Below, in pieces: positions 16,334 through 18,316 of a stretch of DNA of 42,702 nucleotides (the first letter of the stretch is position 1; the number at the start of each line of letters is the position of its first letter). Under the pieces are notes generated by a model. It had not been told where the DNA came from. It searched no databases and saw only the letters and a program-made list of their open reading frames with translations. Origin of the DNA: an uncultured Sphingomonadales bacterium (GTDB taxonomy: Bacteria > Pseudomonadota > Alphaproteobacteria > Sphingomonadales > Sphingomonadaceae); the NCBI GenBank assembly GCA_937881525.1, contig CALGEE010000385.1, forward strand, positions 1-42,702. The letters are read 5' to 3'. A program made the position numbers and the translations under genes.

Positions 16334-16639
16334 TCAGTCATCCAGCAGCAGGGCATCGATTATCAAGCAGCGCGCACCATCGGCAACGACCGCCTGTGTT
16401 AGGGCGATGTCGGCGACGATATGACCGGGCACATGAAATTCATGTTCTGACAATATGGCCGAGAGCTTGCCCACAAAATCCTGCGTTGTTGGATGGGCAG
16501 CCTGCATCGACAGGCATATTTGCGCCCTAGAGAAGGTAAGGCTGTGCCACGGGCGTTCATGAATGACGCTGATGTCGGCAGCGGGAACGAGCGTCCGCAA
16601 CACGCGCAGTAAGGCACCTGAACCTGTACGCCCAATCAT
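16334..16639 (-). CDS. Conserved-looking hypothetical protein, second gene of a two-gene operon
   Basis: 101 aa; its start overlaps the stop of the upstream small ORF by 4 nt (ATGA, 16636-16639). No family recognised. Confidence 0.65.
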   Translation of the reverse strand: MIGRTGSGALLRVLRTLVPAADISVIHERPWHSLTFSRAQICLSMQAAHPTTQDFVGKLSAILSEHEFHVPGHIVADIALTQAVVADGARCLIIDALLLDD

Positions 16640-16833
16640 GTTGGGTGCCGATCGGTTTGGTTGCCATAATTGGACATGAACTGCCGCAATCTCGATTCCA
16701 TTTCTGGCCGAATTTCGCGCCCCATCCTGATGTCCAGCACAAGCCGCGGGTCACCCGCCGCCAAGCAACCGAATTTCGTGGGTGGCAACTCCTGATCCTC
16801 TAAAAACCGTTCAACCTGGCGTGTGATATGCAT
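16636..16833 (-). CDS. Small putative HTH (Cro-like) protein, 65 aa
   Basis: MHITRQVERFLEDQELPPTKFGCLAAGDPRLVLDIRMGREIRPEMESRLRQFMSNYG; spacing resembles a short lambda-repressor-type HTH. Good SD (AGGAGG-CATT-ATG) upstream. Confidence 0.65.
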   Translation of the reverse strand: MHITRQVERFLEDQELPPTKFGCLAAGDPRLVLDIRMGREIRPEMESRLRQFMSNYGNQTDRHPT

Positions 16834-16880
16834 AATGCCTCCTGCGTCATTGACTCGGATGGGCTTGCCCGAATCGGTAA

Positions 16881-16895
16881 GAACAAATATAGAAC
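16881..16895. promoter_or_regulatory. Candidate LexA/SOS box, GAAC-N7-GAAC (= GTTC-N7-GTTC on the minus strand)
   Basis: GAAC 16881-16884, AAATATA 16885-16891, GAAC 16892-16895; matches the known alphaproteobacterial LexA consensus GTTC-N7-GTTC. Located in the divergent intergenic region, 48 bp upstream of the 65-aa ORF. Confidence 0.65.
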
Positions 16896-16903
16896 AAAGT
16901 TGA

Positions 16904-16917
16904 TAGGATAAATCCTA
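16904..16917. promoter_or_regulatory. Perfect palindrome arms TAGGAT-AA-ATCCTA (candidate operator)
   Basis: Read directly; 6-bp arms separated by 2 bp, upstream of the S24 regulator. Confidence 0.45.
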
Positions 16918-16925
16918 CATGTCTA

Positions 16926-16935
16926 GGAAATTTCC
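16926..16935. promoter_or_regulatory. Perfect 10-bp palindrome GGAAATTTCC (candidate operator)
   Basis: Read directly; centred about 20 bp upstream of the S24 regulator ATG. Confidence 0.45.
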
Positions 16936-16950
16936 AATTAAACCAGAGGG

Positions 16951-17589
16951 ATGATTATGGAGGAAGAACCCAGAACAGTTTTGGAGCGCCTGATTGCGCA
17001 GAATGGCGATGATTTCGCGGGCCTGTCCAAGCTCATCGGACGAAATCCAACATATATTCAGCAGTTTATAAAACGTGGCTCCCCGAAAAAATTGGCTGAG
17101 GTGGAGCGTGGCATATTGGCGCGCTATTTCGGCGTCGCAGAAAATATGCTGGGCGGGCCACCGGCGAACGGGGCCAAAACGGGCATTCGCCTCATCCCAA
17201 AACTTGCTGTTGGCGCGTCGGCCGGTCCGGGGGCCATTCCTGATCATGAAACGCCTGCCGGCAAGATTGGTTTTGATGAAAAATGGCTGCGCAAGCAGGG
17301 GCTGGACCCATCCAAGCTCTCGCTTATTCAAGTGGATGGTGATTCGATGTCACCAACGCTGAATCACGGCGACGATATCATGGTGGACAACCGTGTGGCA
17401 GGGGCGATGCGCGATGGCATCCACGTTATCAGGTTCGACGATGTGTTGATGGTCAAACGGCTTGCCAGCGGCCCTGAACGGCGGCTGTCGGTGCTGTCTA
17501 ATAATCCGGCCTATCCGGGGTGGCCAGATGTCGATGGCGCTGCCGTCACGATAATTGGCAGGGTTGTGTGGGCAGGGCGACGGCTCTGA
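16951..17589 (+). CDS. S24 (LexA/CI-like) family peptidase with N-terminal HTH
   Basis: HTH-like LSKLIGRNPTYIQQFIKRGSPKKL; Ser motif VDGDSMSPTLNHGDDIMVD; Lys region IRFDDVLMVKRL; Ala-Gly in the linker (VGASAGPGAIP). Confidence 0.9.
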   Translation: MIMEEEPRTVLERLIAQNGDDFAGLSKLIGRNPTYIQQFIKRGSPKKLAEVERGILARYFGVAENMLGGPPANGAKTGIRLIPKLAVGASAGPGAIPDHETPAGKIGFDEKWLRKQGLDPSKLSLIQVDGDSMSPTLNHGDDIMVDNRVAGAMRDGIHVIRFDDVLMVKRLASGPERRLSVLSNNPAYPGWPDVDGAAVTIIGRVVWAGRRL

Positions 17590-17629: not shown

Positions 17630-18316
17630 ATGTCGCATGTCACATCCACGCCCGCCAAAACGCCGCCGCTTAAGGCCGCGATCATCCCCGTCACACCGCT
17701 GCAGCAAAACTGCACGCTTTTTTGGTGTACCGAAACCAATAAGGGCGCCTTAGTCGACCCGGGCGGTGATCTCGACAAGTTGAAAGCAGCCGTCGCGCAA
17801 ACGGGCGTTCAACTTGAAAAATTATTGGTGACGCATGGCCATCTCGACCATTGCGGGCAAGCTGGAATGCTGGCGCAAGAACTTGGGCTAAAGATTGAAG
17901 GCCCGCATGAGGACGACCGTTTCTGGATTGAGAAGCTGGACGATGACGGCGCGCGCTATGGCATGGAAGCGCATAGCTTCGAGCCCGACCGCTGGTTGGT
18001 TGACGGCGACACCGTGACTGTCGGCAATCTGACGCTCGACGTTATTCACTGCCCCGGCCACACGCCTGGACATATCATTTTCCATCACGGACCCAGTCGC
18101 CTTGCGATTGTCGGCGATGTCTTGTTCCAAGGGTCGATTGGCCGCACAGATTTTCCGCGCGGCAATCACGCCGATCTGATTAATGCGATCACGACGAAAT
18201 TATGGCCGTTGGGGGATGATGTTACGTTCATCCCCGGTCACGGCCCCACTAGCCAGTTCGGCTATGAGCGCCAGCACAACGCCTTTGTGGCAGACGATGT
18301 GCTGGCTGCCCGTTGA
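17630..18316 (+). CDS. MBL-fold metallo-hydrolase (glyoxalase II/YcbL-like)
   Basis: THGHLDHCGQAG, HCPGHTPGHIIFHH, VGDVLFQGSIGRTDFPRG, FIPGHGPTSQFGYER. Confidence 0.95.
   Translation: MSHVTSTPAKTPPLKAAIIPVTPLQQNCTLFWCTETNKGALVDPGGDLDKLKAAVAQTGVQLEKLLVTHGHLDHCGQAGMLAQELGLKIEGPHEDDRFWIEKLDDDGARYGMEAHSFEPDRWLVDGDTVTVGNLTLDVIHCPGHTPGHIIFHHGPSRLAIVGDVLFQGSIGRTDFPRGNHADLINAITTKLWPLGDDVTFIPGHGPTSQFGYERQHNAFVADDVLAAR

Follow-up and report, generated by a model that had tools for sequence, protein, structure and literature searches.

A conserved LexA-type box in a probably domesticated CI/Cro-type switch of the Sphingomonadaceae

Introduction

Two-repressor circuits that respond to DNA damage are known from prophages, in which both LexA and the repressor of the phage undergo cleavage. 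In lambdoid CI/Cro switches and in transposable phages with a D3112/MP38-type c repressor alike, an S24 repressor gene lies divergent to a small Cro-like helix-turn-helix (HTH) gene. The locus described here, from an uncultured member of the Sphingomonadales, shares this arrangement, along with two or three evenly spaced predicted operators between the genes and intact autocleavage residues. Unlike the phage switches, it has ordinary chromosomal neighbours, occurs in 143 of 151 family genomes, carries a LexA box in the switch region and includes a second gene, ORF101, whose product is only distantly tail-completion-like.

Among characterized proteins, the closest in type to the S24 protein of this locus is RogA of Caulobacter crescentus (CCNA_00080), the repressor of gafYZ (PMC9632790). 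Both are HTH plus S24-like repressors (RogA, about 212 aa) encoded by core chromosomal alphaproteobacterial genes, with very few targets and with paired GGA...TCC inverted-repeat operators, which for S24 are predicted. RogA, however, lacks the catalytic residues for cleavage, uses a GGAA-N4-TTCC operator and targets gafYZ (PMC9632790), whereas the S24 protein has an invariant dyad and Ala-Gly site, TAGGA-N4-TCCTA and TCCTA-N6-TAGGA sites, a divergent HTH65–ORF101 operon and a LexA box. The UmuDAb/DdrR system of Acinetobacter is similar in combining an S24-family damage-responsive repressor, a divergent region and a small partner (PMC11332147); in that system, LexA is absent and UmuDAb replaces it, whereas here LexA is present and both repressors seem to act at one region.

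The published LexA motif of Caulobacter is GTTCN7GTTC (PMC12700426). The box in our locus resembles the alphaproteobacterial LexA regulon in sequence, in spacing and in an intergenic placement like that at lexA, recA, uvrD, mmcB, rmuC and radA, but its predicted target is a second, S24-type repressor switch and not a repair gene.

A divergent S24–HTH65 locus with chromosomal neighbours

The locus was found in a window of 42,702 nucleotides, the whole stretch of DNA that was analysed. Its main features are as follows.

16334–16639, minus strand: ORF101, resembling phage tail-completion/terminator proteins; 4-bp overlap with HTH65
16636–16833, minus strand: HTH65, a small protein predicted to be Cro-like and to bind DNA; leads the divergent operon
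16881–16895, minus strand: LexA (SOS) box, GTTC-TATATTT-GTTC, written GAACAAATATAGAAC on the plus strand
16957–17589, plus strand: S24 (CI/LexA-like) repressor, 210 aa, predicted autoproteolytic (PF00717, 1.2e-15; phrog_4 transcriptional repressor, 8.6e-34)
17630–18316, plus strand: MBL-fold hydrolase (PF00753), a syntenic neighbour outside the switch

The S24 gene most likely starts at 16957 and not at 16951, giving a protein of 210 aa, because the sequence GAGGG at 16946–16950 is well spaced from this start and the upstream position lacks an ATG in several relatives. In this numbering, the protein comprises an N-terminal HTH, which has no Pfam match and is predicted from the phrog_4 match, followed by Ala89-Gly90, Ser130 and Lys167. 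It thus combines an HTH with an S24 domain bearing a Ser-Lys dyad and an Ala-Gly site, as expected of a CI-type repressor. The dyad is kept in all 110 S24 loci and the Ala-Gly cleavage site in 109 of them. Among phage proteins, the c repressors come closest, for example those of D3112/MP38, at around 33% identity.

HTH65 has the codon-position pattern of a real gene and lies divergent to S24 in 104 of the 110 loci; elsewhere in the order, beyond the family, it turned up in 1 of 47 genomes. The top folds for its structural model (pLDDT 84) are HipB, 434 Cro and HigA, all with E>0.5, and we call the protein Cro-like, provisionally, by its layout and this weak fold match only. ORF101 follows HTH65 in 86 of the 110 loci. 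Its model (pLDDT 76) has an alpha-beta-beta-alpha-beta-beta order and is matched by Foldseek to tail terminator and neck proteins (monocin cap, Listeria antigen B, GTA virion and lambda gpU) and to DUF3168 proteins, with E values no better than 1.8e-3 in the PDB and 2.5e-4 in a viral library. The ORF101 of the window does not match PF11367 (Tail_completion_gp17), whereas 1 of 55 homologues reaches 29.4 bits against a cut-off of 24.5. These matches are no more than suggestive of a tail-completion-like protein.

The first-pass annotation had described this region as an S24 protein with GDSMSP, a catalytic Lys and an Ala-Gly linker facing a 65-aa HTH frame that leads a two-gene operon, all of which we find; the HTH frame and the 101-aa frame after it overlap by 4 bp. 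Its further statement that no other phage genes are visible holds for the neighbours, which are ordinary chromosomal genes, but not for ORF101, with its resemblance to phage tail-completion proteins. Overall, the layout is that of a CI/Cro switch, with a divergent Cro-like gene and shared predicted operators in between; housekeeping neighbours and family-wide conservation do not fit membership of a phage or prophage. The presence of S24 in nearly all family genomes (143/151), beside ordinary chromosomal genes, agrees with the earlier suggestion of a domesticated or core function. The MBL-fold hydrolase adjoins S24 in at least 42 of the 110 loci read. No anti-phage defence model matches the locus, and the open-access literature that we searched contains no description of a sphingomonad S24/HTH65 module. 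Some genomes carry two S24/HTH65 loci, and one paralogue lacks ORF101 and has a LexA box.

The box matches the genome's own SOS sites

A perfect GAAC-N7-GAAC had been reported at 16881–16895, and GAACAAATATAGAAC is found exactly there, between the divergent S24 gene and HTH65, the leader of the two-gene operon. The box is upstream of both genes, at a distance of 47 nt from the start of HTH65 (16833, minus strand) and 61 nt from that of S24 (16957), in an intergenic region of 123 bp, from start to start, that serves both promoters. The pattern occurs twice in the window, against 1.12 matches expected from shuffling, and so is not significant by itself; the other match, at 1309–1323, is intragenic. 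The significance of the box therefore comes from its context, namely the SOS sites of the genome and conservation, and not from window-only statistics.

The genome encodes its own LexA (TIGR00498, PF01726), and its lexA gene has two overlapping boxes. Further boxes, intergenic or start-proximal, are found at recA, pcrA/uvrD, rmuC, radA (which has a divergent patatin gene) and mmcB, and one lies at the start of a probable imuA, recognized by reading only. A GTTC-N7-GTTC in the promoter region, in a genome whose own lexA has a double box and whose recA also carries a box, is what an SOS operon would display. The genome contains 93 GTTC-N7-GTTC matches, most of which, among those read in context, are intragenic. 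A comparison of such a genome scan with the lexA and recA promoters, as the first-pass annotation had proposed, recovers the same motif there, and a spacer matrix built from eight other SOS sites of this genome, with the GAACAAATATAGAAC site left out, places GAACAAATATAGAAC first among the 93. The matrix is small and noisy: the recA and uvrD sites, left out in turn, rank 22 and 24. In half-sites, spacing and spacer, GAACAAATATAGAAC agrees with the genome's own lexA and recA boxes. On these sequence grounds, GAACAAATATAGAAC is a true LexA box.

Beyond the switch, the LexA-type box between radA and the divergent gene for a patatin-like protein (TIGR03607; C350, position ~8092) marks an unexpected possible SOS target, and four more GTTC-N7-GTTC sites with SOS-like, AT-rich spacers (C28:2879, C451, C474 and C110) occur besides the boxes of the named SOS genes.

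Conservation of the box across genus and family

Within the genus (Sphingorhabdus and relatives), 37 of 45 genomes, and 31 of the 34 good ones, contain the box together with the adjacent S24 operator core. Across the genus, the seven spacer bases vary and both GAAC half-sites are constant. Among 12 close genomes, none of the 15 bases of the box varies, although the flanking genes show differences at 40–49% of their third codon positions.

For the family, we read 104 intergenic regions, out of 110 S24 loci, and compared them with 50 shuffles. The LexA box occurs in 39 of the 104, against 0.34 expected and a maximum of 2 in the shuffles; control spacers of 3–6 and 8–13 bases give 0–3 intergenic regions, compared with the 39 for N7. 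Loss of the motif from orthologous regions had been named as grounds for rejecting an SOS box, and neither the genus nor the family bears this out. The exact box is missing from 65 of the 104 family regions, all of which keep S24 and HTH65, and from 31 of the 39 that have the MBL-fold neighbour. On the S24 tree, box state changes around 15 times, with at least six gains or losses forced by well-supported branches. This absence and these repeated changes imply that LexA control is a layer added or lost by lineage and does not define the switch. Loci without ORF101 have the box in 17 of 19 cases, compared with 22 of 85 loci with ORF101; most belong to one clade. In some relatives, GTTCATGAAATGTTC within HTH65 also matches the pattern; it is coding sequence and was excluded for that reason.

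Predicted operators and promoters

The region between the two genes holds four further elements.

16864–16875, minus strand: conserved element CTTGCCCGAATC with a GANTC (CcrM-type) site, invariant in the genus alignment
16904–16917, strand not assigned: predicted S24 operator palindrome TAGGA-TAAA-TCCTA, the sole exact TAGGAN4TCCTA copy in the genome
16913–16928, strand not assigned: core inverted repeat TCCTA-CATGTC-TAGGA, overlapping the probable −35 region of the S24 promoter
16924–16937, strand not assigned: second predicted operator palindrome TAGGA-AATT-TCCAA, 20 bp from the first and conserved in the genus

The two palindromes, 20 bp apart, flank the TCCTA-N6-TAGGA core, whose exact pattern has a single copy in the genome, at the switch region. 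With one mismatch allowed, ATCCTACTTGTCTAGG is found in 105 of 151 family genomes, as a single copy in each and at the S24-promoter position in the loci read. The TAGGA-N4-TCCTA motif occurs in 53 of the 104 family intergenic regions, against 0.08 expected. The TAGGA/TCCTA sites are probably the operators of S24 itself. No convincing S24 operator was found at other intergenic sites of this genome, and an operator-like site near a tRNA gene was rejected for want of a plausible target gene; class-level relatives of S24 have no matching TAGGA-N4-TCCTA or TCCTA-N6-TAGGA operators.

In many relatives, a TTGTCT in the core and a TATGAT-like sequence 17 bp downstream would make a good S24 promoter, and the position of these elements over the operator core suggests that S24 represses its own promoter. 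A consensus search called no promoter with confidence; for this reason, we assign the gene controlled by LexA from position. The CTTGCCCGAATC element is probably part of the leftward promoter region. A GANTC site is present in 98 of the 104 S24–HTH65 intergenic regions, against 57 expected and at most 65 in the shuffles, and cell-cycle or GcrA control of the HTH65–ORF101 operon is possible.

In 12 family loci, a third S24-type operator lies 15 bp from the core, in approximately the slot that the LexA box holds elsewhere. It is found in none of the 39 box-bearing loci (Fisher p=0.003), a difference that is not significant on independent pairs, when relatedness is counted; mutual exclusion of the LexA box and the third operator is thus only suggestive.

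Alternative explanations

With 93 pattern matches in the genome, mostly intragenic among those read, and 1.12 expected in the window, a coincidental match between two ordinary divergent regulator genes is an obvious thought, but the strong genus and family conservation and the best spacer score leave it a negligible probability; the conservation refutes chance, short of the site being kept for some other factor. One such factor would be S24 itself or HTH65, with the locus outside the SOS regulon. The site does lie between both regulators, and the third S24-type operator of the 12 box-less loci falls in about the same slot. Set against this, the motif matches the genome's own lexA and recA boxes and not the TAGGA/TCCTA sites, 65 of the 104 loci retain S24 and HTH65 without it, and the slot exclusivity loses significance once relatedness is counted, all of which makes binding by S24 or HTH65 quite unlikely. 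The box may otherwise control S24 instead of HTH65–ORF101, such that damage would raise the repressor and shut the operon off. A shared region of 123 bp, in which the box is 61 nt from one start and 47 nt from the other, leaves room for this; the probable −35 and −10 elements of S24, however, sit over the core and second operator, well downstream of the box, so that LexA bound there would be upstream of the S24 promoter and nearer the leftward start. We regard control of S24 by the box as unlikely.

S24 could also be the sphingomonad counterpart of RogA, its real target being the GTA activator gafYZ/gafA. RogA is described as a 213-aa LexA-like HTH–S24 repressor with two GGAA-N4-TTCC inverted repeats and only two ChIP peaks (PMC9632790); here too there is approximately one operator locus per genome, and ORF101 resembles tail-completion proteins, a type that GTAs also have. 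But the cleavage residues that RogA lacks (PMC9632790) are invariant in S24, the operator spacing differs (GGA-N4-TCC and TCCTA-N6-TAGGA), and the surroundings of the genome's own DUF6456 (GafZ-like) gene lack both the S24 operator and the LexA box, which makes this counterpart role very unlikely. One GGAA-N4-TTCC is inside another gene, far from the DUF6456 gene. The latter (C124:4022–4411), which encodes a protein similar to the C-terminal part of GafZ/GafA, is divergent from an XRE regulator and is a possible GTA activator.

Discussion

The explanation that we favour, at a probability of roughly 0.72, is that of a domesticated CI/Cro-type switch, core to the Sphingomonadaceae, with LexA control added in the genus and in some other lineages. 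In this switch, the CI-like S24 protein would bind the TAGGA/TCCTA operators between the two genes and repress its own promoter and, probably, the divergent HTH65–ORF101 promoter. The slot nearest the HTH65 promoter, occupied by the LexA box in the genus and, on several occasions, in other parts of the family, would let LexA repress HTH65–ORF101 as well. Once damage to DNA has activated RecA, LexA would be driven to cleave itself, and S24 would probably do the same, as its Ser-Lys dyad and Ala-Gly site are intact; with both locks open, the Cro-like HTH65 and ORF101 would be made. The suggested link to damage comes from the LexA box and from the intact dyad of S24.

A further-reaching picture, which we find doubtful though conceivable, is that LexA has repeatedly been wired into the third operator slot of a family-core phage-type switch, so that two self-cleaving repressors would jointly gate Cro-like and tail-completion-fold proteins that have come to serve the host, for instance by controlling phage, GTA or tailocin assembly.

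In almost all of the sphingomonads examined, the parts known from prophage circuits form a conserved locus of the host, detached from any phage. The LexA box in the switch region suggests that the switch is thrown by DNA damage, and the genomes with and without the box offer a natural series for testing directly how a switch already in place came under SOS control. As read from sequence, the locus reveals an operon, so far uncharacterised, that probably responds to damage in a family of environmental importance.
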